The notes beneath the pieces were generated by a model that made no database searches, was not told where the DNA came from, and was given only the letters and a program-made list of their open reading frames with translations. Positions 4,782 to 28,129 of a stretch of DNA of 64,000 bases are shown here, piece after piece. The position numbers and the translations under genes are program-made. The DNA lies in NCBI RefSeq assembly GCF_002154605.1, contig NZ_MUNE01000127.1:1-64000 (forward strand). Direction: 5' to 3'. Source of the DNA: Streptomyces milbemycinicus (GTDB lineage Bacteria > Actinomycetota > Actinomycetes > Streptomycetales > Streptomycetaceae). Numbering within the stretch: the first letter of the stretch is position 1; every line of letters starts with the position of its first letter.

Positions 4782-7211
4782 GTGAACCGCAAGGAACTGA
4801 TCAACCGGAACTGGAAGTTCACCTACGGAGATCCCGAGGGTGCGACGCTGGAGGCCTTCGACGACAGCGACTGGTACGACGTGGGGCTGCCCCACTCGTT
4901 CGGGATCCCGTACTTCATGGAGACCGGCTTCTACGTCGGCCGCGGCGTGTACCGCCGCACCTTCGAACTCGCCGAAGAGGAGACCGGCAAGTACGTCGCG
5001 CTGGAGTTCCACGGTGTCTTCCAGGATGCCGAGATCACGGTGAACGGTGTGCCGGTGGACCGCCATCTGGGCGGTTACACGGCCTTCGTCGTGGATGTCT
5101 CCGAGGCCGTGCGCCCGGGGACGAACCAGCTCGCGGTCCGCGTGAGCAACGAGTGGAACCCACGGCTGGCGCCCAGGGCGGGGGAGCACGTCTTCAACGG
5201 CGGCATCTACCGCGACGTCTCCCTGATCATCGCCGAGCGGACGCGGATCGCCTGGTACGGCACGGGAGTGGTGACGCTCGGCGTCGGCACCGACGGCGCG
5301 GCCGTCGAGGTCACCACCGAGCTGGTGAACGAGACCGACGCGCCGTTCGTCGGACTGCTGGCCGCGGAGGTGACCGGTCCCGGTACACGCCCCGTCGAGG
5401 CGGTCGCATCGGTGAACCTCCCGCCCCGCTCGACCACGGTGCACCGGCAGCGTCTGGTCGTGGAAGACGTACGCCTGTGGCACCCGGACTCCCCACACCT
5501 CTACACACTCGAGCAGACGCTGCGGACGAGCGAGGGCGCCGAATGCCACCGCACGGGTACCGAGTTCGGCATCCGCACCTTCGAGTTCACCGCGACCGAC
5601 GGCTTTCACCTCAATGGGGAGCGGTTCGCGATCCACGGCGCCAACGTCCACCAGGACCACGCCGGATGGAGCGACGCCGTCACCCACTCCGGGATGCGCC
5701 GGGACGTCGCACTCATCAAGGAGGCCGGGATGAACTTCATCCGCGGCTCCCACTACCCCCACCACGACCAGTTCGCGACCGAGTGCGATCGACTCGGTGT
5801 CCTCTTCTGGTCCGAAGCGCCTTTCTGGGGCATCGGCGGAGCCAACACCGAGGGGTTCTGGAACGCCAGCGCGTATCCGCCGGACGAGGCGGACCAGGCC
5901 GAGTTCGAGGACAGCTGCCTGCGTGCCATGGCGGAGATGATCAGGGTGAACCGCAATCACCCGAGCATCGTGGCCTGGAGCACCGGCAACGAGGTCTTCT
6001 TCAGCGACGAGCATGTGATCCCGGCAGCGAAGAAACTGACCCGGCGTCTGGTGGACCTCGCCCACGAACTCGATCCGACACGTCCCGCCGCGGTCGGCGG
6101 CGCACAGCGCCGGGGCTTCGACGAGCTGGGTGACCTGGCGGGATACAACGGCGACGGCGGTGAGCTGTACCTCAACCCGCCCTGGCCGAACATCGTCTCC
6201 GAGTACGGCAGCGTCGTCGAGGACCGGCCCGGCAGCTACACCCACCGCTTCCGCCACGGCAGCGAGAACGCATATGCGTGGCGCTCCGGAGTCGTGCTGT
6301 GGTGCGGCTTCCACCACGGCAGCATCGTGCCCGACATGGGGCGGATGGGGTTCGTCGACTACTACCGCCTTCCCCTGCGGTCCTGGTACTGGTATCGCCA
6401 TCAGTTGAGAGGGATCGCGCCGCCTGCGTGGCCAGAGCTGGCCACGGCCACCGCGCTGAAGATGACCGCCGACCGCACCGTGGTGCTCACTGACGGCACC
6501 GACGACGTGCAGCTTGTCGTCGAGATCGTCGATGACACCGGCCGAGTGGTGGCGGACGAGCGCCCCGTGCGGCTCGAGGTCGTCCAAGGTGGCGGTATCT
6601 TCCCCACCGGCACGTCGATCGAGCTCAACCCGGACAACAAGGGGCTGCTCGACGGCCGGGGCGCCATCGAGTTCCGCTCGTACCACGCCGGCCCCAACCG
6701 GCTGCGGGCGACCGCGGAAGGGCTTGCCCCCAGCGAGATCACCGTCGAGGCGGTCGGCCCCGAGCCGTGGACGGGACAACACCGTAACTTCGCCCCCGGC
6801 CCACCGTCACGGGTCCACTTGCCCGACCCCCTCAGGCCCCCCCAGCTCTCCGAGATGCGACCCGTCTTCAGCAGCGGGGCCCGGCCGGACCGTCCCGCCC
6901 GTCTCGTCACCGACCACAGCGTCGACCACGGATGGATCAGCGCCACGGACGATCCGGGTGCCTGGCTGTCGGTCGAACTCGAAGGACTGTGGTCGATCAC
7001 CACGATCCACGTCGAGTTCGGTGTCGGGCCCCAGGTGCCGTACGTCATCGAACTCTCCGACGGCGGCCGGGACCTCGTGCCGCTGGCCGCCGGCACCACC
7101 GGGTCCACCACCGTGCGGCTGGACCTCGACAACACGCAGGCCCGCGCGGTCAGGGTGACCTTTCCGCAGGCGCCCACCGAAGTGATCAACATCCGGGTGC
7201 ACGGTCACTGA
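4782..7211 (+). CDS. Glycoside hydrolase family 2 with C-terminal discoidin-like domain
   Basis: A 809-aa GH2 enzyme of the beta-galactosidase/beta-glucuronidase/beta-mannosidase type. The N-terminal jelly-roll domain (about 1-170) begins with the usual family motifs (NRNWKF, SDWYDVGLPHSFG). An Ig-like domain and the TIM barrel (about 275-560) follow. The acid/base Glu is about residue 404 in STGNEVF and the nucleophile Glu about 474 in IVSEYGS. The last 130 residues form an F5/8-type (discoidin, CBM32-like) sandwich, likely a sugar-binding tail. There is no signal peptide, so it is probably intracellular. The GTG start follows GGGAGGG. It is first in an operon with the sugar importer and GH95. 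Substrate specificity cannot be settled here. Confidence 0.92.
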   Translation: MNRKELINRNWKFTYGDPEGATLEAFDDSDWYDVGLPHSFGIPYFMETGFYVGRGVYRRTFELAEEETGKYVALEFHGVFQDAEITVNGVPVDRHLGGYTAFVVDVSEAVRPGTNQLAVRVSNEWNPRLAPRAGEHVFNGGIYRDVSLIIAERTRIAWYGTGVVTLGVGTDGAAVEVTTELVNETDAPFVGLLAAEVTGPGTRPVEAVASVNLPPRSTTVHRQRLVVEDVRLWHPDSPHLYTLEQTLRTSEGAECHRTGTEFGIRTFEFTATDGFHLNGERFAIHGANVHQDHAGWSDAVTHSGMRRDVALIKEAGMNFIRGSHYPHHDQFATECDRLGVLFWSEAPFWGIGGANTEGFWNASAYPPDEADQAEFEDSCLRAMAEMIRVNRNHPSIVAWSTGNEVFFSDEHVIPAAKKLTRRLVDLAHELDPTRPAAVGGAQRRGFDELGDLAGYNGDGGELYLNPPWPNIVSEYGSVVEDRPGSYTHRFRHGSENAYAWRSGVVLWCGFHHGSIVPDMGRMGFVDYYRLPLRSWYWYRHQLRGIAPPAWPELATATALKMTADRTVVLTDGTDDVQLVVEIVDDTGRVVADERPVRLEVVQGGGIFPTGTSIELNPDNKGLLDGRGAIEFRSYHAGPNRLRATAEGLAPSEITVEAVGPEPWTGQHRNFAPGPPSRVHLPDPLRPPQLSEMRPVFSSGARPDRPARLVTDHSVDHGWISATDDPGAWLSVELEGLWSITTIHVEFGVGPQVPYVIELSDGGRDLVPLAAGTTGSTTVRLDLDNTQARAVRVTFPQAPTEVINIRVHGH

Positions 7212-7281
7212 GCGAGACCTGCCCTCAGAGCATCCGATCACGACCAGCACATGCGATACATGTTCAAGAAAGGCCAGTTCA

Positions 7282-8517
7282 ATGAAGAACGGAAGAGTCC
7301 TGCCGCGGGTCGCCGCCTCGGCCACTGTGATGGCCATGGCGCTGGCCCTGACCGCCTGCGGCAGTGGTTCCTCGGCGAGCGACGGTCTCACCGTCTGGTA
7401 CGCACCGGGCTCCGTGCCCAAGGCGTCCCTGGCGGTGCAGAAGAAGTTCCCCGGCCTGAAGATCAAGCTGATCCCGACGCCCAACCTGGAAACCAAGCTG
7501 AAGACCACCCTGCAGACCGGCTCCGGACTGCCGGACGTGGTGGTCATCGGCAACCACATCAGTTCCTACGCCGACATCTCGACCAAGTTCGTCGACCTGA
7601 AGACCATGGGCGCAGACCCGAAGAAGGACTACGTCACCTGGAAGTGGACCAACGGCACCCTCCCCGACGGACGGGTGATCGGGTACCCGATCGACACGGG
7701 GCCGCAGGGGCTGTTCTACCGCAGCGACCTGTTCCGCAAGGCCGGCCTGCCCACCGACCCGGCCGCGGTCTCCAAGATGGCCTCCACCTGGGACGGCTAC
7801 CGCACCATGGCCGAGAAGGCGAAGAAGGCCGGCTTCAAGGCGTGTGACGACGCCAACCAGGTCTACTACCTGCAACTCGAGCAGAAGGGGCAGGGCAGCT
7901 TCGACACCTCCGGCAAGTACCTGGGGGACAACGCCTCGACCCGCAAGGCGTTCGACTACTCCGCCAAGCTGCTCTCCGACGGCCTGTGCACCAAGGCGGA
8001 GCCATACAGCACAGACTGGAACAGCTCGGTCGCGCAGAACGCTCTCGGCGGCTTCGTCGCCCCGGTGTACGAGGGTCCGCTGCTGGAGACCGCGGGCAGC
8101 CCCAAGGGGGTATGGCGGGTGGCCTACCCGCCCGGCGGCCCCGGCAGCAAGGGGGGCTCGTACATGTCGATCCTCAGCTCCAGCAAGCACCGGAAAGACG
8201 CGTACAAGGTCATCAAGTGGATGATGTCCCCGGCCAACCAGGCGTCGGGCTTCAACGACGGCCTGTTCCCCTCGGCCCTCGCTGCTTACAAGAGCCCGGA
8301 GCTGAACGCACCGCAGCCGTTCTACGGCGGTCAGCCGACGGGTGTGGTGTTCGCGAAGGTCGCCCAGGAGTCGCCGACGGTCCCGGTCACACCGAAGGAC
8401 GGGGTCGTGGAAGGCGCCCTCACCGAGGCACTCAAGTCGGTGGCGCAGGGCAAGGCCTCCGCTGACGAAGCCTGGAAGTCCGCACAGGCCCAGATCGCCA
8501 AGGAACTGAAGCGGTGA
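7282..8517 (+). CDS. ABC sugar importer, solute-binding lipoprotein
   Basis: A 411-aa extracellular binding protein of the bacterial family-1 (MalE-like) type. The N terminus is a lipoprotein signal ending in the lipobox LTAC near residue 25, so the mature protein is tethered to the outer face of the membrane. It feeds the two permeases that follow. Its TGA overlaps the next start by 4 bases, indicating translational coupling. It sits 70 bp after the GH2 gene with no terminator between. The ligand is probably the oligosaccharide processed by the GH2, GH3, GH42 and GH95 enzymes of this locus. Confidence 0.93.
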   Translation: MKNGRVLPRVAASATVMAMALALTACGSGSSASDGLTVWYAPGSVPKASLAVQKKFPGLKIKLIPTPNLETKLKTTLQTGSGLPDVVVIGNHISSYADISTKFVDLKTMGADPKKDYVTWKWTNGTLPDGRVIGYPIDTGPQGLFYRSDLFRKAGLPTDPAAVSKMASTWDGYRTMAEKAKKAGFKACDDANQVYYLQLEQKGQGSFDTSGKYLGDNASTRKAFDYSAKLLSDGLCTKAEPYSTDWNSSVAQNALGGFVAPVYEGPLLETAGSPKGVWRVAYPPGGPGSKGGSYMSILSSSKHRKDAYKVIKWMMSPANQASGFNDGLFPSALAAYKSPELNAPQPFYGGQPTGVVFAKVAQESPTVPVTPKDGVVEGALTEALKSVAQGKASADEAWKSAQAQIAKELKR

Positions 8518-9518
8518 CGAAGGTGGTGGACACGAGCATGGGCGCGTCGATCCCGGCGCGACCGACTGCCCGTCGGCCGACGACGGACGGGCCCAGGCCC
8601 GCTCCCGGCCCGTCCCGGCCCCGGCGCTGGCGGTCCTATCTGGCCAGCTATCTCGCCATCTCCCCGTTCTTCGTGCTCTTCGCGGTGTTCGGAGTGTTTC
8701 CGCTCGGTATCGCGGCCTATCTCAGCTTGCACACGTGGGACGGCATCGGGACGATGCACTTCGTCGGATTCGAGCAGTTCCACCGGCTGCTCGAGGACTC
8801 CCAGTTCTGGCAGTCGCTGGTCACCACGATCGAAATCTTCGCCATGTCCCAGGCGCCGATGGTGGTGGCGGCACTGGTCGCGGCCTTCGTGCTGAGCAGC
8901 GACCGGCTGCGCTTCCGCGGTGTCTACCAGACGGTCTACTTCCTGCCCCAGGTCACGTCGATCGTCGTGATCGCGATCGTGTTCCAGTCCCTGTTCGGCG
9001 GCAACTTCGGGATGATCAACCGGCTGCTGGTCTCTGTCGGCCTGCCTTCGGTGGACTGGATGGCGAGCACCTGGGGTGCCAACACGATGATCGCTCTGAT
9101 GATCATCTGGCGTGGCTTCGGCTATCTCGTGATCTTCTTCATGGCGGGCATGGCCACGATTCCCCCGGAGCTCTACGAGGCGGCGGAGCTCGACGGGGCT
9201 GGGGGCCCGCGGAAGCTGTGGTCGATCACCCTGCCGATGATGCGCCCCACCATCGTGTTCGCGCTCCTGACCGGCATCGTCGGCGGCCTTCAGGTCTTCA
9301 CCGAACCCCAGATCCTGGGCGTCAGCGGCACGTCCGTACCCGGGATGACCATGATGCTGTTGCAGTACCAGTACCTCGGACAGTCCCAGAGCGCGAGCGT
9401 GGGCGCCGATCTGGGCTACGCCAGCGCGATCGGCTGGGCCGTGTTCGCCCTCGTCACTCTGGCCTCGCTGGGCACTCTGCTCATGCGGCGCGTCACCGGA
9501 CACAAGGAGGTGATCTGA
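8514..9518 (+). CDS. ABC sugar importer permease (MalF-like)
   Basis: A 334-aa inner-membrane permease. A Pro/Arg-rich cytoplasmic N terminus of about 40 residues precedes six predicted membrane spans (for example AISPFFVLFAVFGVFPLGI). The EAA loop that docks the ATPase is present: EAAELDGAGG, with LWSITLPMMRP after it. It overlaps the binding-protein gene by 4 bp and is 1 bp from the second permease. No ATP-binding gene is in the operon. In Streptomyces the shared ATPase MsiK usually serves such importers. Confidence 0.93.
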   Translation: MTKVVDTSMGASIPARPTARRPTTDGPRPAPGPSRPRRWRSYLASYLAISPFFVLFAVFGVFPLGIAAYLSLHTWDGIGTMHFVGFEQFHRLLEDSQFWQSLVTTIEIFAMSQAPMVVAALVAAFVLSSDRLRFRGVYQTVYFLPQVTSIVVIAIVFQSLFGGNFGMINRLLVSVGLPSVDWMASTWGANTMIALMIIWRGFGYLVIFFMAGMATIPPELYEAAELDGAGGPRKLWSITLPMMRPTIVFALLTGIVGGLQVFTEPQILGVSGTSVPGMTMMLLQYQYLGQSQSASVGADLGYASAIGWAVFALVTLASLGTLLMRRVTGHKEVI

Positions 9519-17311: not shown

Positions 17312-18388
17312 TCAGGAGGCAAAGGACCGCTCCAGCCGCGGAACCAGGTCCTGAAGATCCTGTTCCCAACAGCCCGCGGTGTGGCCGCCGTTGCACTGGG
17401 TGCCCCAGCTCGAACCGTCGCCGTAGTTGATGTAGTAGTAGGGCATGCCCAGAGCGTCCATGCGGGCCTTGACGTTTTTGGCCGCGCCCGCCACCCAGAA
17501 CTCCATGTCGACAGGTGAGCCCCCGCCGTCGCCCGTGTAGATGGAGACCCCTATGCCGGCGAGCCGGTCCATGTGCTGGGACGGGTCGACCTGGTTCCAC
17601 CGCCAGTCGACGTTGAGCACCGGGTAGGGCGAGCCGAACAGCGCATCACTGTCCACACCCGGCTTGAAGGCGGACTCGTTGGGGTCACAGTAGCCGGACG
17701 ACGAGGCGCACATCGCGCCCAGCGCGTCGGTGACGGAGGCCACGACGGCCATCCGCAGGTCCATGGAGTTGGCCGACAGGTCGATGTCTCCCGACAGGGA
17801 CGCGGTCTGGCTGAACAGGTCGGGGCGGACCTGGGCGTAGTGGAAGGCCCCGAACCCGCCCATGGAGACACCAGCGACGGCCCTGGCCTTCTTGGTGGCG
17901 ATGGTCCGCAGGTTCGCGTCCACGAACGGAATCACCTGCTTGAGGTGGAAGTTCTCCCAGTTCTGGGCGCCGAGCACGGTGTTCTGGTTGAGCCAGTTGG
18001 CGTACCAGCTCCGGGCGCCGCCGTCCGGGATGACGGTGATCATCTCGTCCGACATGGACAGCGCCGGATAGCTCTGCTGGATCGGGTCGTCGGGTGCGCC
18101 GTGCAGGAAGTAGAGCACCGGGTAGCGCCGGTTCGGGTCGTCGTAGTAGCCGCTTGGCAGGATGATCTTGATGTGCTGCTCACCCGTGACCTCGGGAGTG
18201 GTCACGGTGAGATAGAAGTTGGTGGCACTTCCTGTCGTGGTGCCGACCTGGGTCAGGCCGAAGCCGTTCGCCATCGTTGGCGGAGCGGTGCTGTCAGCGG
18301 CCTGTGCCGTGCCCGCCGGCGTGGCCATCGCCACCGTGGCGACCGCCCAGGCCACCAGGATGCGCCACCAGTTCGCTCTGACTGTCAC
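17312..18388 (-). CDS. Secreted esterase (alpha/beta hydrolase, esterase-D/antigen-85 type)
   Basis: A 358-aa exported esterase. A Sec signal peptide of about 30 residues (WRILVAWAVATVAMATPAGT then AQA) precedes the catalytic domain. The nucleophile is Ser at about 175 in GVSMGG, and the oxyanion region is YFLHGAPDD. Members cleave feruloyl or acetyl esters on plant wall polysaccharides or act as acyltransferases. GTG at 18388 has GAGGGGG upstream. It follows the penicillin-acylase-like gene by 53 bp in the same direction, and a strong terminator follows. A relative lies divergently at 19364. Confidence 0.88.
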   Translation of the reverse strand: MTVRANWWRILVAWAVATVAMATPAGTAQAADSTAPPTMANGFGLTQVGTTTGSATNFYLTVTTPEVTGEQHIKIILPSGYYDDPNRRYPVLYFLHGAPDDPIQQSYPALSMSDEMITVIPDGGARSWYANWLNQNTVLGAQNWENFHLKQVIPFVDANLRTIATKKARAVAGVSMGGFGAFHYAQVRPDLFSQTASLSGDIDLSANSMDLRMAVVASVTDALGAMCASSSGYCDPNESAFKPGVDSDALFGSPYPVLNVDWRWNQVDPSQHMDRLAGIGVSIYTGDGGGSPVDMEFWVAGAAKNVKARMDALGMPYYYINYGDGSSWGTQCNGGHTAGCWEQDLQDLVPRLERSFAS

Positions 18389-18441
18389 AGCGTTCCCCCT
18401 CGTGAGTCTCTTCTTGCCCGGCGCGAATACACATGCCGCTC

Positions 18442-19095
18442 TCAGTCCAGGACCTTGATCTCCAGTGCCGGTGAGGCCGCGATCTGTTCCTCGGTGAAGC
18501 GCTCGGTCACCCACTGGCCTGCCGAGAACACCTTGGTCTGATCGACGTAGTGCGGTGAGTTGGGGTTGGCCGATTGTGAGTAGGTCAGTACGGAGAGTGC
18601 CTGTGGCGGGCCGTCGGCGGTGAACCGCACCTGCTGGATGAAGCTGGAGCCGAAGACGATGTCGAGCTTGCCGTCGACCTGTCCCGGAGTGATCACGTTC
18701 AGCACGCCCAGTTCCCCTGGTGAGCCGTGGATCGGGATCTGCTCATCGTTGCGGGTGACCTTCTGGATGTCCGACAGCGGTGCGTTCAGCGGTATGCCTG
18801 TGTTGCGCAGGGCGAGAACCGCGCGGCCGAAGGCGTCGCGGACGGCGGAGCTGCCGGAGTCCAGCGAATTGGGCGTGTGGACCGGGTCGTTGGGGTCGAA
18901 GGGAACCCGCCACGGCAGTTTCTCGACGCCTTGTCCGCCGAGCGGGCGGGTCCAGTAGTTCGCGGACAGCCAGGAACCCCGGCTGTCCGGCCCTCCTTCG
19001 GCGGCCGGTGACCCGCTCGCCGCCGTCGTACCCATCACCGCCACCGCGGCGACGACCGCCATCGGCAGCCTCGCTCTGTGTCTCCTCCGCACCAT
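18442..19095 (-). CDS. Exported C-terminal piece of a penicillin-acylase-family protein
   Basis: A 217-aa protein with a signal peptide ([20 protein letters not shown] onward to about residue 33) followed directly by what in penicillin/AHL acylases is only the C-terminal region: [52 protein letters not shown]. The N-terminal catalytic Ser after the autoprocessing site and the first 500-600 residues are missing. The GGAAGG ribosome site, signal peptide and sustained frame suggest it is expressed, but it cannot be a normal acylase. It may be a deletion remnant that kept its own signal, or a repurposed domain. Confidence 0.72.
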
Positions 19096-19363: not shown

Positions 19364-20356
19364 ATGTTGAGCGCACAGCACCCCACCCGCAGGAACATCC
19401 TCAAGGCTGCCGGCGGGCTCTCCGCCGCGATGGCCATGGGCGCCGGGTTCGTCCTGGCCGGCTCCACGCCCGCCGCCGCGGTCGGCGACGGGTTCGGCCT
19501 GCGGATCGTGGACCGCAACGAGAGCGACCCCCGGATGTGGTACTACCGGTTCCAGACCGATGAGATCGGCTGGAACCCCGGCGTCAACGTGCTCCTGCCG
19601 GACGACTATCACGGGAGCGGTCGCACCTACCCGGTCCTGTACCTTTTCCACGGCGGCGGCACGGACCAGGACTTCATCACCTTCGACCGCGAGGGCGTCC
19701 GCGACTGGACCGCCGGCAAGCCCATCATCGTGGTCATGCCCGACGGCGGCCACGCGGGCTGGTACTCCAACCCCGTCAGCTCGAACGTCGGCCCGCGCAA
19801 CTGGGAGACCTTCCACATCGCCCAGCTGCTGCCCTGGATCGAGGCCAACTTCCGTACCTACGCCGAGTACGACGGCCGGGCCGTGGCCGGGTTCTCGATG
19901 GGAGGCTTCGGCGCGCTGAAGTACGCCGCCAAGTACTACGGCCACTTCGCCTCGGTCAGCGCCCACTCGGGCCCCGCCAGCCTGCGCCGCGACAATGGCA
20001 TGGTCGTCCACTGGGCCAACGTCAGCTCCGGCGCGCTCGACCTGGGCGGCGGCACGGTCTATGGCGCGCCCCTCTGGGACGAGGCCCGGGTGAATGCCGA
20101 CAACCCGGTGCAGCGCATCGAGAGCTACCGCAACAAGCGGGTGTTCCTCGTCGCGGGCACCAGCCCCGACCCGGTCAACTGGTTCGACACGGCCAACGAG
20201 ACCCACGTGCTCGCCGGGCAGCGCGAGTTCCGCTCCCTTCTCGACAACGCGGACATCCCGCACGAGTGGTACGAGCTGCCCGGTGGCCACTTCATTCGCC
20301 ACGACATGATGCAGCGCGACATCGACGGCATCATCGACCGCCTCCGCAAGGCGTGA
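19364..20356 (+). CDS. Tat-exported esterase (alpha/beta hydrolase, esterase-D type)
   Basis: A 330-aa esterase. The Tat signal is visible as [20 protein letters not shown], ending at TPAAA. The catalytic Ser is about residue 178 in GFSMGG, with YLFHGGG before it and GGHF near the C terminus supplying the His. It is related to the esterase at 17312, with the shared patterns FGL...YPVLY.FHG and NWE.FH...W. The start is ATG 19364 or, with better spacing from AGGAGG, TTG 19367. It leads a plus-strand group with the three propeller-tailed enzymes. Likely substrates are acyl or feruloyl esters on polysaccharide. Confidence 0.87.
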
Positions 20357-20421
20357 CCGGCGCACCGAGCGCCGCGCACCTTTCCCAGCCACCCCGAGAC
20401 GACCAAGGGGAGGAGCGTCTC

Positions 20422-21933
20422 GTGCTGATCGGACTCTCCCGACGCGCGCTGACCTGTGTCCTCGCGGCGACAGCCGCCCTCCTGCTGGCGCTGGTGAGCA
20501 CGTCCCCGGCTGCCGCCCGCACCACCGACCTCCCGGCTGCCTGCCCGGCCGCCGGATTCGTGTCCCAGCACTTTCACAGCGGTCACAACGGCGTCGACAT
20601 CGCCAATGACTACGGAACCCCGATCTACGCCGTCGCCGACGGCGAGGTGACCATCTCCGGTTACGCCAGCGGCTACGGCCAGTGGATCCGCATCCAGCAC
20701 CCGGACGGGACGATCTCCGAGTACGGGCACATGTACCAGCGGGACGTCTTCGCCGGCGACCACGTGGTGGCCGGGCAGCAGATCGCCCTGATGGGATCCG
20801 AGGGCGAGTCGTCCGGCCCCCATCTCCACCTGCGGATCTGGGGCGACTCGTCCGCCACGTACGGCATCGACCCCGAGCCCTACCTCGCCGAGCGCGGCGT
20901 GGTACTGCCCTGCGTCCCGGGCAGTGGCCCGCGCCCCACTCCCTTGGTGTATCCGGCGGAGTCGGGGCGTGTGGTGTCGGCGCGGTCGGCGGACGGTCGG
21001 CTTGAGGTGTTCGCCGCCGGTGCCGACGGGGTGCATCACGCCTGGCAGGCCGAAGCGAACGGCTCCTGGTCGGCGTGGGAGGCACTCGGAGGCCCGGGCG
21101 GCGCGGAGTTGGCGATCGCGCCGAACGCGGACGGACGTCTGGAGCTGTTCGCGATCAACGGGAATGTCTTCCAGCACCGGTACCAGCTGTCTGCTTCGGG
21201 TGGCTGGTCGGGCTGGGAGGGCTTCGGCGGGGGCGGTCGTGATGTGACGGCCGGTGTGAATGCCGACGGCCGGATCGAGGTGTTCGCGTCAGGGCCGGTC
21301 GGGTTGTTTCACAAGTACCAGGCCGCTCCGAACAGTGGCTGGTCGGACTGGGAGCCCACAGGCGGTGGCCCGGCTGACAGCCGTGTGGAGATGGAGAAGT
21401 CTCCGGACGGTCGTCTGGAGGTGTTCGCCCTGAACGGGAACACCTTCCAGCACCAATACCAGACCTCGCCGAACGGCGGCTGGTCGGCGTGGGAGAACTT
21501 CGGCGGCGGGGGGCACGATCTGACCGTGGACCACAACCAGGACGGGCGTCTGGAGGTCTTCGCCTCCGGTCCTGTGGGAGTGTTTCACAAGTATCAGACC
21601 AGCCCGACGGGTTGGTCGGAATGGGAGCCCACGGGTGGCCCCGCCGACTCTCAGCTCAGCAGCGAGCGTTCGCCCGACGGCCGGGTCGAGGTGTTCGCCA
21701 TCAACGGCAGCGTGGCCCAGCATCTCTGGCAGACCGGGGTGAACGCCCCGTACGGACAGTGGGAGTCCTTCGGTACCGGCGGCACGGAGGTTGCCGCCAC
21801 GGCGAACGCCGACGGCCGCATCGAGGTCTTCGGCGCCAGCGGCGCCGGCGTCCACCACAAGTGGCAGACCGGCTTCTCGACCTGGTCGGACTGGACGTGG
21901 CTGAACAACACCGCGGGTCCTGCCGTCAACTGA
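20422..21933 (+). CDS. Secreted M23 peptidase with seven-bladed PLL-type lectin propeller
   Basis: A 503-aa exported protein. After a signal peptide of about 32 residues comes an M23 (LytM) zinc endopeptidase domain, about residues 40-165. The zinc/catalytic residues are His55 and Asp59 in HNGVD and His134/His136 in HLH. Such enzymes cut peptide bridges in peptidoglycan. Residues about 175-500 hold seven repeats of about 45 residues with the pattern DGRLEVFA...G..H.YQ....GWS.W, the signature of PLL-type seven-bladed propellers that bind fucose or methylated sugars. The GTG start follows GGGGAGGAG. It is 65 bp after the esterase and 11 bp before the lysozyme-like gene, so probably co-transcribed. 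Confidence 0.88.
21652..21791 (+). repeat. 140-bp direct repeat, copy 1 (propeller blade 6)
   Basis: This 140-bp stretch of the M23-propeller gene recurs at 23145-23284 in the lysozyme-propeller gene with a single silent difference (AAC/AAT). Other blades of the two genes differ freely, so the block points to recent gene conversion or duplication. Confidence 0.9.
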
Positions 21934-21944
21934 GGAGACATCAG

Positions 21945-23426
21945 GTGGAAAGACAACAGGTGCATACCGTGCGGCGGGCCCGAAGAGCGCCCCACCGCGT
22001 CATGCTGTCGACGCTGGTCTCGTTGCTGCTCGCGGCGGGGGTCGTCGTCGGCGCCTCGCCGGCCTACGCCGCTCCGAGCGACCTGTGCGCCGAGGTCGGC
22101 TACAACGCGGGCTTCCGCGGCGACGGCCTGGTGACCGCCGTCGCCGTTGCCCTCGCGGAGTCCAGCTGCGACCCTTCGGCGACCAACGTTCAGAACAACA
22201 CACCCCCGTCTCGGGACCGCGGCCTGTGGCAGATCAACGACTACTGGCACCCCGAGGTCGACGACGCCTGCGCCTACGACGCCCAGTGCAACGCCAACGC
22301 CGCCTTCGAAATCTCCTCCGGCGGTACGAACTGGCAGCCCTGGTCCACCTACAACGCGGGCGCGCATTGGCGGCACATGGATGAGGCGCAGGCCGCAGTG
22401 GACCGGCTCGGCCACCACGAGCCCGGCCCCGGACCGCTGGTGTATCCGGCGGAGTCGGGGCGTGTGGTGTCGGCGCGGTCGGCGGACGGCCGTCTCGAGG
22501 TCTTCGTGGCCGGGGCCGGTGGTGTCCACCACGCGTGGCAGACGAGTGTCAACGGTGGCTGGTCCGAGTGGGAGTCCCTGGGCGGTCCGGGCGGCGCGGA
22601 GCTGGCGATCGGTCCGAACGTGGACGGGCGCCTTGAGGTCTTCGCCATCAACGGTGACGTTTTCCAGCACCGCTATCAGCTCTCCTCCTCGGGTGGATGG
22701 TCGGGCTGGGAGAACTTCGGGGGAGGTGGCAAGGACATCGCTGTCGGGGCGAACGGCGACGGCCGTCTGGAAGTCTTTGCGTCCGGCCCGGTCGGGGTGT
22801 TCCACAAGTATCAGACGGCTGCCAACAGCGGTTGGTCGGACTGGGAGTCGGCGGGCGGTGGTCCGGTGAACAGCCGGCTTGAGATGGAGAAGTCTGCGGA
22901 CGGACGCCTTGAAGTGTTCGCGCTCAACGGTGATGTCTTCCAGCACCAGTACCAGACGGCGGTGAACGGCGGCTGGTCGGCGTGGGAGAACTTCGGTGGC
23001 GGGGGGCACGATCTGACCGTGGACCACAACCAGGATGGACGCTTGGAGGTCTTTGCTTCCGGTCCTGCGGGTGTGTTCCACAAGTACCAGAGTGATCCGG
23101 CGAGTTGGTCGGACTGGGAGTCCACGGGCGGTCCTGCCGAGTCCCAGCTCAGCAGCGAGCGTTCGCCCGACGGCCGGGTCGAGGTGTTCGCCATCAATGG
23201 CAGCGTGGCCCAGCATCTCTGGCAGACCGGGGTGAACGCCCCGTACGGACAGTGGGAGTCCTTCGGTACCGGCGGCACGGAGGTCACTGCCACGGCGAAC
23301 GCCGACGGCCGCATCGAGGTCTTCGGCGCCAGCGGTGCCGGCGTGTATCACAAGTGGCAGACGGGTTTCGCGTCCTGGTCCGACTGGATCTGGGTCAACA
23401 ACACCGCAGGCCCCGCAGTCAACTGA
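21945..23426 (+). CDS. Secreted lysozyme-like enzyme with seven-bladed PLL-type lectin propeller
   Basis: A 493-aa exported protein. The GTG start at 21945 lies 6 bases after GAGGAGA, giving an Arg-rich N terminus and a signal ending in ASPAYA. The catalytic domain (about 45-150) is a lysozyme/transglycosylase-like fold: the likely catalytic Glu is about residue 72 in ALAESSCDP, followed by [11 protein letters not shown] and a paired-Cys loop (CAYDAQC). Family members cut the glycan strand of peptidoglycan. From about residue 165 the same seven-blade propeller as the previous gene follows, nearly identical in its first and sixth blades. The pair would cut both peptide and glycan bonds of the same wall. 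Confidence 0.87.
23145..23284 (+). repeat. 140-bp direct repeat, copy 2 (propeller blade 6)
   Basis: The second copy of the block at 21652-21791, with one base different. It lies in the lysozyme-propeller gene, about 1.5 kb downstream. Confidence 0.9.
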
Positions 23427-23443
23427 TCCCTCGACCCGTGAAC

Positions 23444-23488
23444 GCCCCGCGGCCGGCGGAGCCCGTACGGTTCGGCCGGCCGCGGGGC
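23444..23488 (+). terminator. GC-rich hairpin between two propeller genes
   Basis: GCCCCGCGGCCGGC (23444-23457) pairs perfectly with 23475-23488 across a 17-base loop. There is no T-tract. It lies just before the GH43 ribosome site, so it could be a terminator, an attenuator or an mRNA stabiliser. Confidence 0.6.
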
Positions 23489-23504
23489 CCGGCTGGAGAG
23501 ACTC

Positions 23505-25523
23505 ATGCTCCCGATCAGCAGACGGAATCTGTTGCGCGCCGCCGCGGCGAGCGCGCTGCCACTGATGGGCGCCGGCCGCGCCGAGGCCTCGGACGTCCCG
23601 CCCCACCGGTGGATCGGCTCGGGCCCCTTCACCTACGTCCATGACCCGTCCACCCTCGCCGGGCCCCGCTACCTCAACGACCACACGCTCGTCCAAGTCC
23701 AGGACCGCTGGCACCTGTTCAGTATCGTCGGCGCGAGCGCGCCGCGCGGCGAGTCACCGGACAGCGCGGCGGAGATCGCCTTCACCCACGCCTCCGCCCC
23801 GACGCCGTACGGGCCGTGGACCGCGCACGTCGACGCCCTCACCGTCGACCTCTCCTATTTCGGTGAGGAACACCTATGGGCGCCGCACGTCGTCGAGGCG
23901 GGCGGCAGATACTGGATGTTCTACGCTGCCGGTGGCGAAGCCGGTGCCGCGATCAACCTCGCCACCTCCACCGACCTGTTCACCTGGACCCGGGAGCCGT
24001 CCGGCCCGCTGTTCCGAGGCCTCGCCGCACGCGACCCGATGGTGGTGCGGATCGGCGGCGAGTGGGTCATGTACTACACCGAACTCTCGAAACCGGGTGG
24101 CCGCCACGTCGTCGCCCACCGCCGCTCCGATGACCTGCTGCACTGGAGCGAGCCGGGGATCGTGTTCACCGACGCGAGCACCGACACGACGGTCTCCGTG
24201 ACCGAGTCGCCGTTCGTCGTCGAACGGGACGACTGGTATTACCTGTTCATCGGTCCGCGGGGCGGCTACGAGGGCACGGATGTGCTGGCGTCCCGGGACC
24301 CGTTCCACTTCGACCTCGACGGGTACGCGGGACACGTACCCGGTCACGCTGTCGAGGTGGTCGCCGACGGTGGGAACTGGTACGTGAGCGCCGCGGGCTG
24401 GTTCCGGCAAGGGCTGTACATGGCGCCCCTGCACTGGCGTGACACACCGGTGCCGTGGCAGAGCCCCGACAACCCGGTGGCCGGCCTCGACGCCGACGGC
24501 CGGCTCACGGTGTTCGCGCTCGACGCCGGGGACCGGTCGATGCTGCGCCGCGTCCAGCTCGACCCGAACACCGACACCTGGTCGGCGTGGGAGGTCTTCG
24601 GCGGCCCGGCCGGGGCAGTCCCCACGCTCGGCCGCAACACGAACGGCGGGCTGGAGGTGTTCTCGCTCGCCCCGGGCGGCGCCAACCTGCACCACCGGGT
24701 GCAGCGGCCGGACGGAGGCTGGCACGACTGGGAGGAGTTCGGCGGCCCGGCTGGTGCCGCCCCCGCCGTCGCCCGTGACGCGAGTGGCCGGCTGGAGGTC
24801 CTCGCGCTGAGCCCCGGTGGTGCCTCCGTCGCCCGCCGACGCCAGGGGGCGCCGGGATCGCTCGCCTGGGAACCCTGGGAACCGGGATTCGGCGGAGCCG
24901 CGGGTGCGCCCCCCGTCGTCGCGGCCAACGCCGACGGCCGGTTGGAGGCGTTCGCCCTCTCGCCCGGCGGTTCCGGGATCTACCACCGCTGGCAGGAGGC
25001 GCCGGGCGGCCCCTGGACCGCCGCGTGGCACCCGTTCGGGACCGCGGCGGGCGCCGCGCCAAGGGTGGCGCGGGACGGCAGCGGCCGGCTCACTGTCACC
25101 GCGATCGGGCCGTCCGGTGTGGGGACGTTCCACCGTCGGCAGTCCGTGCCCAGCGGCGGCTGGGATGACTGGCTGCCGCTGTTCGGCTGGAGCGCCGCCG
25201 CGCCGACTCTCGCCGTCAACGCCGACGGCCGCCTGGAGGCCTTCTCCCTGACGCCCGGCGGGGCACGGCTCAGTCACCGCCGGCAGGTCGCCCCGGGCGG
25301 CGGCTGGGACTCCGGCGCGGAGTTCGGGGAACCCGGCATCCGTCTCGCCGCCACGCCCGCGGCCGCGATCGACCCCGCCGGGCGGACCCATGTCTTCGCC
25401 GTCACCACCGAGGGCCGGATACGCCGGCGGGTCCAGGTCAGGCCGAGCGGCGGGTGGGGACCGTGGGCGACATTCGGCGATCGCCCGGTCGCACCGGTCG
25501 TGTCGGGCAGTCCCGCCCCCTGA
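23505..25523 (+). CDS. Tat-exported GH43/GH32-superfamily enzyme with PLL-like propeller
   Basis: A 672-aa protein with a Tat signal (SRRNLLRAAAASALP). Residues about 45-315 form a five-bladed furanosidase propeller. An acidic residue sits early in LNDHTLVQ, a middle Asp in ARDPMVVR and a Glu in VTESPFVV, matching the general base, pKa modulator and acid of GH43/GH32-type enzymes. The likely activity is arabinofuranosidase, xylosidase or fructosidase; I cannot choose. Residues about 325-665 carry seven more diverged lectin-like blades (NADGRLEAFALSPGG...H.RQ). An ATG with GGAG upstream starts it, 78 bp after the lysozyme-like gene. It is the third propeller-tailed enzyme in a row. Confidence 0.83.
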   Translation: MLPISRRNLLRAAAASALPLMGAGRAEASDVPPHRWIGSGPFTYVHDPSTLAGPRYLNDHTLVQVQDRWHLFSIVGASAPRGESPDSAAEIAFTHASAPTPYGPWTAHVDALTVDLSYFGEEHLWAPHVVEAGGRYWMFYAAGGEAGAAINLATSTDLFTWTREPSGPLFRGLAARDPMVVRIGGEWVMYYTELSKPGGRHVVAHRRSDDLLHWSEPGIVFTDASTDTTVSVTESPFVVERDDWYYLFIGPRGGYEGTDVLASRDPFHFDLDGYAGHVPGHAVEVVADGGNWYVSAAGWFRQGLYMAPLHWRDTPVPWQSPDNPVAGLDADGRLTVFALDAGDRSMLRRVQLDPNTDTWSAWEVFGGPAGAVPTLGRNTNGGLEVFSLAPGGANLHHRVQRPDGGWHDWEEFGGPAGAAPAVARDASGRLEVLALSPGGASVARRRQGAPGSLAWEPWEPGFGGAAGAPPVVAANADGRLEAFALSPGGSGIYHRWQEAPGGPWTAAWHPFGTAAGAAPRVARDGSGRLTVTAIGPSGVGTFHRRQSVPSGGWDDWLPLFGWSAAAPTLAVNADGRLEAFSLTPGGARLSHRRQVAPGGGWDSGAEFGEPGIRLAATPAAAIDPAGRTHVFAVTTEGRIRRRVQVRPSGGWGPWATFGDRPVAPVVSGSPAP

Positions 25524-25955: not shown

Positions 25956-26750
25956 GTGAGCGGCGTAGTCGTCCATCTGCCGCAGGGGAGCGGCGCCGAC
26001 GGCGGTGAACCGGTGACGTTGCGGCTGGGCCCCGGCGAGGTCGCGCGGTTCGGGCGCGGTTCTCCCACGACCCCGGTCGAACTCCGCCTGGACGACGACG
26101 CGGTGTCCCGGCTGGCGGGCGAGATCCGTGTGACCGACGATCACTGGCAACTGACGAACCACAGCACCAGCCACAGCTATCTGGTGGAGAACCCGGAGGG
26201 AGCGGGCGAGTACCTGAGGGTTCAGCCGCGCAGGGTCGGCGCCCCCATTCCCTTCGAGTTCTCGCGCGTAGTGCTGCCCACCCGCAGTCAGGTGCCGGTC
26301 GTCTTCCAGGTGTTCGCGCCCGACCATGTCTATCTGGACCCGGACGCCACGGGCGTGCTGTGGGGGAGCCGCACCGTCATGGCGTACTCCCTCGACGAGA
26401 CGGCCACGTACTTCCTCGTCCTGGTCGCCCTGTGCGAGCCGCGCCTGCGCGACCAGTCACGGGTCGCGGTTCCCACCACGCCCCAGATCGTGGAACGTCT
26501 CAACGGACACACCACCTCAGGTGCCCTGACAGCGCGGGCGATCAGCTCCCACATCGACTACCTCGCCGAGCAGAAGCTGCGCATCGGCCCACCGGACGTG
26601 CACGACCCCGGCAAGGGCGACCGCCGCAACGGCAAGCGGGAGGAGATCGTCGGGCTCGCGCTCCGCTTCGGGCTCGTACGGGAGGAGCACCTCGCGTTGC
26701 TGCCACCGCCGACGGGCGCGGCCGGGCGGGAGCGGCAGCCGGCGCGATGA
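25956..26750 (+). CDS. FHA-domain protein with C-terminal helical domain
   Basis: A 264-aa cytoplasmic protein. The N-terminal 100 residues read as an FHA fold (LGPGEVARFGRG, DDDAVSRLAGEIRV, WQLTNHSTS), which binds phosphothreonine. Residues about 135-240 look like a winged helix (LNGHTTSGALTARAISSHID). The stop overlaps the next gene's start as ATGA, so it is translationally coupled to the kinase. The FHA protein is probably a substrate or docking partner of that kinase. Confidence 0.82.
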   Translation: MSGVVVHLPQGSGADGGEPVTLRLGPGEVARFGRGSPTTPVELRLDDDAVSRLAGEIRVTDDHWQLTNHSTSHSYLVENPEGAGEYLRVQPRRVGAPIPFEFSRVVLPTRSQVPVVFQVFAPDHVYLDPDATGVLWGSRTVMAYSLDETATYFLVLVALCEPRLRDQSRVAVPTTPQIVERLNGHTTSGALTARAISSHIDYLAEQKLRIGPPDVHDPGKGDRRNGKREEIVGLALRFGLVREEHLALLPPPTGAAGRERQPAR

Positions 26751-28129
26751 CACCACTGCACGGCCCAGGCGGCACCACGGGAGAGCCCGCGGACCTCCTG
26801 CCGAGCGGCTACCGCGCGGGGGAGTGGGCGGTCAGCGAACTGATCGGCGTCGGCGGCTGGTCCACGGTCTACGCCGCCCGGCCATCCGGTCGCACCGGGG
26901 GACCGGCCCGGCCCGCCGAGGTCGCGCTCAAGGTCATGCCGACCGCCGGACTCGCGCCCCGCCAGGCACGCCGGATCGTGGAGTCCGCACACCGTGAGGT
27001 CGAGCTCGGCCGCAGGACGGGGCACCCGCGCCTGATCGGTCTCATCGAGTCGTTCGTCCTCAGAGCGCCGGACCGGCCGTCGCTGGACGGCGCGATCGTC
27101 CTCGTGATGGAACGGGCCGCGCGCAGCCTGCGCGAACTCCTCGACGCCGGGGTGCCCGAGGCGGATCGCGGTCGGCTGATCGAGGGCATCTGCGAGGGAC
27201 TCGCCCATCTCCACCGCTCGGGCTGGGTGCACGCCGACCTCAAACCCGAGAACGTACTGCTCGGCCGGGACGGCTCGGTGAAACTCTCGGACTTCGGTCT
27301 CGCCACCGAACTGACCGGCACGCACGGCTACGCGCCGCCCCTGGGCACCCTCGACTATCTGCCGCCCGAGCGCTGGAAGGCCCCTCTCGGCGCACTGGGT
27401 GTGCAGGTCCGGCCGAGCGCCGACATCTGGGCCCTGGGCATCGTCATCCACGAGGTGTTCGCCTCCGGCACCTCACCCTTCGCCGGTGCCACGCCCGTAG
27501 CGCGCGGCGCCGCCGTCCAGGAGTACGGCGAGGGCCGTGCCCCGCTGCGCATGGACCATGCCGTCCCGCCGTTCTGGCGCGACCTGGCCGCGGACTGTCT
27601 GGCCCCGACGCACGAGGCACGCGCCGAGCACACAGCCGACAGCCTGCTCGGCCGCATCGCCGCCGGGCAGCCGACGCGGCGCTCCAGGGGCGCACGGCCG
27701 CACGGCCGGGCCCGCACGGCCCTGCTCGCCGTCGCCCTGTGCGCCACCGCGGGCGCGACGCTCTCGGGCGAAGCCCCTCGGAAGGAAGCCTTCCGGCCCA
27801 CCGGCGAACTCACCGTGTTCAACGCCGAACGACGCTGTCAGGACCGGACCGACCGAGACCTGCATTGCAGTCTGGGGTTGGCGATCGACCCGACGCGCCC
27901 GTACACCCCCGGCAACGTCGTCCCGACCCGGGTGTGGCACGGCGACGTCCTCACCGCCGAATGCCAACTGCCGCACGGCCTGCCCATCGTCGACGAGGAC
28001 GACCTGCGGTCCACCCGATGGTTCCGGGTGCGGCTCCCGAGCGGCTCGGCACCCGCCGGCTGGCTCCCCGCCGTACGCACCAAGGACCGGCCGCCGCTTC
28101 CGAATTGCCCGTACCCCACGGCCCCCTGA
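26747..28129 (+). CDS. Membrane Ser/Thr protein kinase coupled to the FHA gene
   Basis: A 460-aa kinase. Residues 20-300 contain a glycine loop ([10 protein letters not shown]), the ATP-binding Lys in VALKVM, the catalytic loop [13 protein letters not shown] and an APE-like PPER. One transmembrane helix lies at about 322-342 ([15 protein letters not shown]). The last 110 residues, with two Cys about 10 residues apart (RRCQDR...LHC), are outside the cell and resemble no PASTA or WD40 sensor I know. I place the start at the ATG inside the ATGA overlap. Frames running further upstream overlap the FHA gene. Confidence 0.87.

Follow-up and report, generated by a model that had tools for sequence, protein, structure and literature searches.

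Tandem Streptomyces genes join putative wall-lytic enzymes to PLL-type propeller lectins, two of which evolve in concert

Lysostaphin and zoocin A each join a peptidoglycan hydrolase to a wall-targeting module. A comparable design is found in a 64,000-nucleotide stretch of Streptomyces milbemycinicus DNA (contig NZ_MUNE01000127.1, positions 1 to 64,000; hereafter the window), where an esterase gene (EST1) is followed on the same strand by genes for an M23 metallopeptidase, an SLT_3 lysozyme-like enzyme and a GH43-like glycosidase, each predicted to end in a seven-bladed PLL-type propeller lectin (M23-PLL, SLT_3-PLL and GH43-PLL). PDB matches place the M23 domain in the same peptidase family as the two lysins, but its targeting module is a multivalent propeller lectin common to two unrelated tandem hydrolases. 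By sequence and predicted fold, the three propellers belong to the PLL family (Photorhabdus PLL, PLL2-PLL5 and PHL; PropLec7A in UniLectin), with which they share the seven-bladed fold, the blade motif and polar inter-blade pockets of the galactose type. Lectins of this family with solved structures stand alone and have fucose-type sites, whereas here the propeller is a C-terminal module on putative wall hydrolases and the fucose-site Trp is absent.

Three further systems bear comparison. The propeller lectins of Streptomyces umbrella toxins are reported to recognise a teichuronic-acid-like polymer on the streptomycetes that they target (PMC13274773, PMC11062931). Like UmbA in those accounts, the proteins described here are of streptomycete origin and carry a beta-propeller lectin that would direct a harmful activity to competitor wall glycopolymers; the lectins are, however, fused to M23, SLT_3 and GH43 domains in place of the trypsin-like domain, and UmbB and UmbC were not searched for. 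With the propeller profile, 12 PDB matches were obtained at E 10 or better and none was an Umb chain, in a sequence-level comparison with a PDB copy whose Umb content was unchecked. Bacterial GH184 muramidases are described as devoid of a wall-binding domain (PMC10394673). A domain related to these enzymes, matching the solved structures 8b2h and 8b2e, is in contrast fused to PLL in 11 of the genomes defined below as carriers. Finally, Lentzea-type loci (L044-L047, about 6600-9200, plus strand) encode a tandem M23 and SLT_3 pair in the same order and with one shared type of C-terminal propeller, which by eye is FG-GAP-like instead of PLL and shows no concerted evolution. Our literature search, with most subscription journals and preprints outside its coverage, found no description of PLL fused to M23, SLT_3 or GH43. 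The concerted evolution of the M23 and SLT_3 propellers is the new result and the most interesting one.

We consider that the cluster encodes a lectin-guided lytic set for galactose-bearing actinobacterial walls, borne on an accessory island and serving competition or predation, and give this reading a probability of roughly 0.55. It starts from what was observed: the genes present and their folds, their co-occurrence, the conserved pockets and two lectins that evolve in concert. The M23 enzyme would cut peptidoglycan peptides and the SLT_3 enzyme the glycan strand, both tethered to the same wall by matched seven-pocket lectins of the galactose type. Removal of sugars and acyl groups from the wall glycopolymer would fall to the GH43 enzyme, which bears a separate, diverged PLL lectin, and to the CE1-like esterase. 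The likeliest target would be the walls of other actinobacteria, with glycopolymers able to carry galactose.

Catalytic domains and propeller fold

An earlier note on this DNA had described an esterase gene and three enzyme-PLL genes in a row on one strand, and the coordinates bear this out. On the plus strand, EST1 (19364..20356), M23-PLL (20422..21933; propeller about 20947-21930), SLT_3-PLL (21945..23426; propeller 22440-23423) and GH43-PLL (23505..25523; catalytic domain about 23592-24458, diverged propeller 24477-25490) are co-directional, with intergenic gaps of 65, 11 and 78 bp. Each catalytic domain matched its Pfam family above the cut-off (Esterase 2.7e-50, Peptidase_M23 1.9e-28, SLT_3 3.4e-39, Glyco_hydro_43 4.5e-13). 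The M23 domain scored 98.9 bits against a cut-off of 28.7 and contains HNGVD and HLH, which we take to be the HxxxD and HxH zinc-ligand motif of the family. The SLT_3 domain scored 133.6 bits against a cut-off of 27; its AES motif is invariant across 34 sequences, and the conserved Glu is probably catalytic. EST1 is a PF00756 (CE1/Ag85-type) esterase without a lectin domain, whose nucleophile motif SMGG is invariant across 25 aligned sequences and whose best solved matches are feruloyl esterases. Alignments A3, A4 and A7 held 24, 23 and 12 orthologues besides the window's own, part of those available. Residues D30, D148 and E205 of the GH43 domain (numbering of alignment A7), presumably the catalytic carboxylates, are invariant in 13 of 13 sequences.

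All four proteins begin, by eye, with export-signal-like N-termini, Tat-like (twin-arginine translocation) in EST1 and GH43-PLL; the Pfam TAT_signal match of EST1 reached 20.4 bits, slightly below the 22.7-bit cut-off. The cluster enzymes are probably secreted.

The C-terminal halves matched solved Photorhabdus PLL lectins with best E values of 1.3e-47 (M23), 1.7e-58 (SLT_3) and 9.8e-46 (GH43), and seven DGR-type blades were counted by eye in each propeller, several of them degenerate in GH43-PLL. These matches and counts agree with the seven DGRLEVFA-type blades that the earlier note had assigned to each enzyme. Two of the three proteins were modelled by AlphaFold, and a seven-bladed propeller was obtained for both. 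In GH43-PLL (predicted local distance difference test score, pLDDT, 86) the propeller superposes on PLL4 (8q82) with a Z score of 42.9 over 330 residues at 1.9 Å, and the catalytic part adopts a GH43/GH32-type, five-bladed-type fold (Z up to 26.8). The SLT_3-PLL propeller was modelled at a pLDDT of about 90 and matched PLL lectins in Foldseek at E 1e-22, while the SLT_3 part of the model is poor, with 10-residue blocks at pLDDT 34-81. The M23-PLL fold was assigned by the 85% identity of its propeller to that of SLT_3-PLL. All three PLL matches found in this genome sit inside the cluster.

Other tools were less telling. On the propellers Pfam reported FG-GAP_3 stretches only and no PLL family, and Tandem Repeats Finder reported no array. 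DUF346 (PF03984), already named a PLL-like lectin in PMC7778903, was tried as a marker and set aside as uninformative, with zero matches in the genome and likewise in 14 controls.

Concerted evolution and sugar pockets of the paired propellers

Propellers were compared within and between 18 genomes holding both M23-PLL and SLT_3-PLL, namely the window and 17 of 53 loci (L001-L053) obtained by scanning sequenced genomes with the SLT_3-PLL protein (P0003). The nearest relatives of this protein in that scan are from Streptomyces, at about 85% identity. The 53 loci are mostly from Streptomyces, with others from Kitasatospora, Actinokineospora, Actinosynnema, Lentzea and Kutzneria; picked by the SLT_3-PLL query, they are biased and were therefore excluded from all frequencies, and counts from them were never added to those of the 295-genome sample described below, with which they may overlap. 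Comparisons, tree and pocket counts used rows of at least 300 residues (300 to 420 in the shared alignment): 30 of 32 for M23, 24 of 25 for SLT_3, 32 of 33 for GH43, 11 of 13 for GH184-like and 6 + 4 of 6 + 4 for NlpC-like propellers, window included. Eight rows, including L053, were excluded for want of a recognised catalytic domain.

It was found that the M23 and SLT_3 propellers evolve in concert. Their median identity within a genome is 91.8%, compared with 77.2% for the same gene in other genomes and 76.6% for different genes across genomes, and in 18 of 18 pairs the two propellers are more alike than they are, at the median, to the same gene from other genomes. In 13 of the 18, the identity between the two is higher than that of either one to its same-gene counterpart in any of the other genomes. 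Fourfold-degenerate sites follow the same pattern, with 81.2% agreement within a genome against 47.8% (same gene) and 48.4% (different gene) across genomes, and the identity occurs in tracts. On the tree, the M23/SLT_3 label needs 15 changes for the 18 pairs, compared with 12.4 in shuffles, many of the forks being weak. Gene conversion between neighbouring genes explains the homogenisation.

Three other kinds of propeller pair are not homogenised. GH43-PLL and M23-PLL propellers are 37.0% identical within a genome and 37.3% across (41% in the window), and the adjacent Lentzea-type pairs give 68.7-72.4% within and 66.7-71.6% across (4 loci). GH184-like and M23 propellers, whose genes are non-adjacent, give 63.3% within and 63.6% across (8 loci).

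We infer that a need of both enzymes for one target maintains the homogenisation of the M23 and SLT_3 propellers; lectins matched within a strain and differing between strains are what would be expected if both cuts must hit the same target. Alternatively, the matching may carry no functional meaning and reflect neutral conversion between adjacent 1-kb repeats, an account that is compatible with the other readings and stands outside their common sum. Silent sites are homogenised as well, the identity lies in tracts, and the effect is confined to adjacent pairs, the non-adjacent GH184-like and M23 propellers showing none of it. Against this, the adjacent M23/SLT_3 pairs of the Lentzea type are not homogenised, although their lower DNA identity may itself hinder conversion, and the conserved sugar pockets suggest selection on binding. 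On balance we regard a purely neutral origin as rather doubtful.

The pockets were located by comparison with PHL, whose D-galactose site is reported to combine Arg, Glu and a stacking Trp with Gln and Trp contributed by the next blade, its fucose site using another Trp (PMC5584973). By numbering, the Arg and Glu are those of the DGRLE motif; in our alignment the fucose-site Trp position lies directly before the His of the following strand. Among 75 M23, SLT_3, GH184-like and NlpC-like propellers, 68 have R, E, aromatic, Q and aromatic in all seven blades and the other seven have six such sites, four being NlpC_B propellers with the first blade trimmed off and three GH184-like ones with Asn at the stacking place. 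Both M23-PLL and SLT_3-PLL of the window have seven complete galactose-type sites. GH43 propellers retain two complete sites in 26 of 32 cases (mainly in blades 4 and 6), one in four and four in two; that of the window has one complete canonical site, in blade 4. Judged by these residues, M23 and SLT_3 appear to carry galactose-type lectins with seven pockets each, whereas the GH43 propeller seems to bind something else or less strongly, and the degree of conservation suggests selection on binding.

The earlier note had placed one lectin module on all three enzymes. That holds for M23 and SLT_3, which share a propeller type and are kept alike, and fails for GH43; since the GH43 propeller has diverged to 41% identity and one complete pocket, a common address is supported for the M23 and SLT_3 enzymes only. 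The same residues bear on the proposal, made for Photorhabdus PLLs, that such modules target fucosylated or O-methylated glycans of animals or fungi. The closest solved relatives are indeed Photorhabdus lectins reported to bind fucose and O-methyl sugars (PMC6943638, PMC5584973). A Trp of the fucose/O-methyl type, however, is found at none of the 525 corresponding places in the 75 hydrolase propellers (2 of 224 in the 32 GH43 propellers), and the fused enzymes resemble peptidoglycan hydrolases, which makes an animal or fungal target highly improbable here.

Distribution and exchange of catalytic partners

All frequencies refer to 295 genomes of the genus, including the present one, with seven candidates scored per genome. 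Propeller-profile matches at E 1e-8 were found in 96 of these genomes and strong matches in 24, which we term carriers (at least one match of at least 360 bits; the next-best genome reached 269 bits). Carrier loci were mapped with domain profiles over 20-kb stretches, shorter at contig ends, and absence of EST1, of the second esterase EST2 or of the acylase means absence from that stretch. Across 394 genomes of the class, eight had a match at E 1e-30 or better, five of these in the same genus. A search for plasmid carriage gave four distant matches, none covering 80%.

The earlier note had named genes that do not travel together as a refutation of its reading; these genes do travel together. 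M23-PLL is present in 24 of 24 carriers and GH43-PLL is intact in 20, at the same locus as M23-PLL in 19; of the others, G060 has it at another locus, G071 and G072 hold remnants, and G185 and G133 have none. In G060 (L080, L081) the M23-PLL and GH43-PLL genes were observed on separate contigs, each distant from the contig ends. A glycan-cutter-PLL is present in 19 carriers, as SLT_3-PLL in eight (in G134 with a frame-broken propeller) or GH184-like-PLL in 11 and never as both, an exclusivity with a probability of 0.0017 if the two were independent, kinship not being corrected for. The remaining five carriers have neither, one of them (G074) having an NlpC-like-PLL. With M23-PLL in 24, GH43-PLL in 20 and an SLT_3 or GH184-like member in 19 of the 24, the co-inheritance is real, and the window's trio is one version among several in which the peptidoglycan cutters are exchangeable. 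The full cassette of esterase, M23-PLL, SLT_3-PLL and GH43-PLL recurs among the 53 loci.

PLL partners in those loci are M23, GH43, SLT_3, a GH184-like domain (profile matches to 8b2h, E 7e-10, and 8b2e, E 2e-4) and two NlpC/P60-like forms, the latter weakly matching Spr and MepS (E 0.02-0.03). By their domain assignments, the island partners other than GH43 are putative cutters of peptidoglycan peptides or glycan. Genome G093 (L093, 8605-11615, minus strand) was observed to hold, by eye, a tandem of M15/VanY-like-PLL and muramidase-like-PLL; the two propellers are 95.9% identical, against 85.9% to the M15-like-PLL of G163, and so show the homogenisation seen in the M23/SLT_3 pairs. In other actinobacteria (L061, L062, L095), distant PLL-like propellers are seen by eye on S8-like or matrixin-like proteases, and some stand alone.

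This distribution bears on two further explanations. The set might remodel the wall of the producer itself, in hyphae or spores, with the lectin attaching the enzymes to a galactose-bearing glycopolymer of that wall. Streptomycete walls are reported in PMC11481543 to contain a Gal-Kdn teichulosonic acid and a Gal-GlcNAc-phosphate polymer (Gal, galactose; GlcNAc, N-acetylglucosamine); a self target would need matched lectins as well, and the linked kinase/FHA-like gene pair described below could couple the set to development. However, strong PLL matches in just 24 of 295 genomes, exchangeable catalytic types, losses and remnants are unlike housekeeping hydrolases, and we consider self-remodelling unlikely. 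The same galactose polymers fit the target of a lytic set aimed at other actinobacteria, without proving it.

Alternatively, the enzymes may scavenge nutrients from dead wall or from plant or fungal polysaccharide, the lectin anchoring them to substrate in general. Polysaccharide digestion is a typical role of GH43 and CE1-like enzymes, EST1 is nearest to feruloyl esterases, and the GH43 matches include arabinanases, xylosidases and levanases. The constant partner is nevertheless an M23 peptidase, and the exchangeable ones (SLT_3, GH184-like, NlpC-like by a weak match and M15-like by eye) point to peptidoglycan, which leaves scavenging a somewhat poorer prospect still than self-remodelling.

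Target clues, neighbouring genes and significance

Phage relatives of the catalytic domains, mainly from phages of Rhodococcus, Streptomyces, Gordonia and Mycobacterium, favour a lytic set directed at actinobacterial walls. The SLT_3-PLL protein matched 10 phage records at E 1e-5, five from Rhodococcus and five from Streptomyces phages; three are annotated as 'putative entry lysozyme', two as baseplate or structural protein, and the Streptomyces ones as 'glycosyltransferase'. For the M23 domain there were 1142 phage records, with Mycobacterium (410) and Streptomyces (130) as the commonest host names; the best among the matches listed are mostly lysins, with two minor tail proteins, from Rhodococcus and Gordonia phages, and relatives also occur in Bacillus, Lactococcus and Staphylococcus phages.

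A more specific mycolata target, with EST1 as a mycolyl esterase and the lectin reading O-methyl sugars, was considered and weakened: EST1 matches feruloyl esterases at E 8e-16 and Ag85B at 2.6e-8, and the fucose/O-methyl-type Trp is absent from the propellers. In its favour, the phage relatives include phages of mycolata. The solved neighbours of the GH43 domain are mixed, comprising the BT_0996 entry 5mt2, arabinanases, levanases and xylosidases; the structural matches at Z 24.6-26.8 include levanases, arabinofuranosidases and xylosidases, and the lack of a family from a VIA-align list was not counted as excluding that family. Furanosidase activity is plausible for this domain.

Several points weigh against a lytic set for competition or predation. 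The producers are themselves actinobacteria, and the enzymes may act on their own walls. Five of the 24 carriers lack a glycan-cutter-PLL, G185 has only M23-PLL and EST1, and the loci of G060 are split. The lectin of GH43 is unlike that of the M23/SLT_3 pair, and in the window itself that pair shows one of the lower degrees of homogenisation (85.3% identity, 60.4% at fourfold sites), its copies not being sisters on the tree. Neutral gene conversion between adjacent repeats can by itself yield concerted evolution. With conserved pockets and near-saturated silent sites between genomes, no clear arms-race signature was seen. The furanosidase activity and the single decorated surface that the earlier note had proposed are inferences, as are export, catalytic activity, ligand, target and a competitive or predatory role.

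Membership of the set is wider than first claimed. The earlier note had counted three PLL enzymes and the esterase. Related loci contribute further members: a second esterase and a full-length acylase, NlpC-like-PLL and GH184-like-PLL enzymes, and a kinase/FHA-like pair linked to the island. Extension of the shared address to the esterase is not borne out as stated in the note: EST1 has no lectin and lies upstream of M23-PLL in 13 of 24 carriers. Upstream and on the minus strand lie EST2 (17312..18391, start codon approximate), a second, divergent PF00756 esterase that recurs in 14 of 24 carriers, and a remnant of a PvdQ/penicillin-amidase-type acylase (18442..19092), a gene recurring in 10. 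In the remnant a signal-like N-terminus is fused in frame to the C-terminal part, with the core missing; a full-length relative in L074 has 850 aa.

The 78-bp gap ahead of the GH43 gene (23427..23504, plus strand) folds as a very strong hairpin (-55 kcal/mol, z -4.1; none of 200 shuffled sequences reached that stability), and GH43-PLL may therefore be expressed separately from the M23/SLT_3 pair. The hairpin, a possible terminator or attenuator, lacks a T-run and is not among the three sites of a T-run terminator scan.

Downstream on the plus strand, an FHA-like gene (25956..26750, by eye; sole Pfam match Yop-YscD_cpl, E 0.011) is followed by a Ser/Thr kinase gene (26774..28129; Pkinase 1.6e-34) whose product, by eye, crosses the membrane once and has an outer domain containing Cys; the kinase lies downstream of the FHA-like gene in relatives too. 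Of the 24 carriers, 22 have a homologue of the FHA-like gene (at least 360 bits) within the mapped island stretch, in G035 on the opposite side of the island; among the 271 non-carriers, 13 have one anywhere in the genome (Fisher P 4e-22, without correction for kinship). Lower-scoring paralogues are widespread (136 of 295 genomes at E 1e-40). PADLOC matched none of the four cluster genes, nor EST2 or the FHA-like gene. For the kinase it gave matches to 33 models (best mad6, 2.6e-43), which were taken as generic kinase similarity. As a speculation, the kinase/FHA-like pair might cue the lytic set.

Taken further, and tentatively, the islands could represent an unrecognised actinobacterial antibacterial system, in which a peptide cutter and a glycan cutter, unrelated in chemistry and each exchangeable, are directed as a pair to one prey glycopolymer by lectins that gene conversion keeps matched within a genome and that change as a unit across strains, the kinase/FHA-like pair perhaps cueing the attack. 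If so, the design would have other versions in the M15-like/muramidase-like pair of G093 and in the Lentzea pairs, whose propeller is of another type. The locus provides a case of concerted evolution in a targeting domain borne by two unrelated enzymes, and a searchable and testable modular rule, a peptide cutter plus a glycan cutter with one shared lectin. Through seven-pocket lectins of apparent galactose type, the target of an actinobacterial lytic set becomes directly testable, and, if strain-specific, these enzymes would be natural selective lysins for actinobacterial walls.

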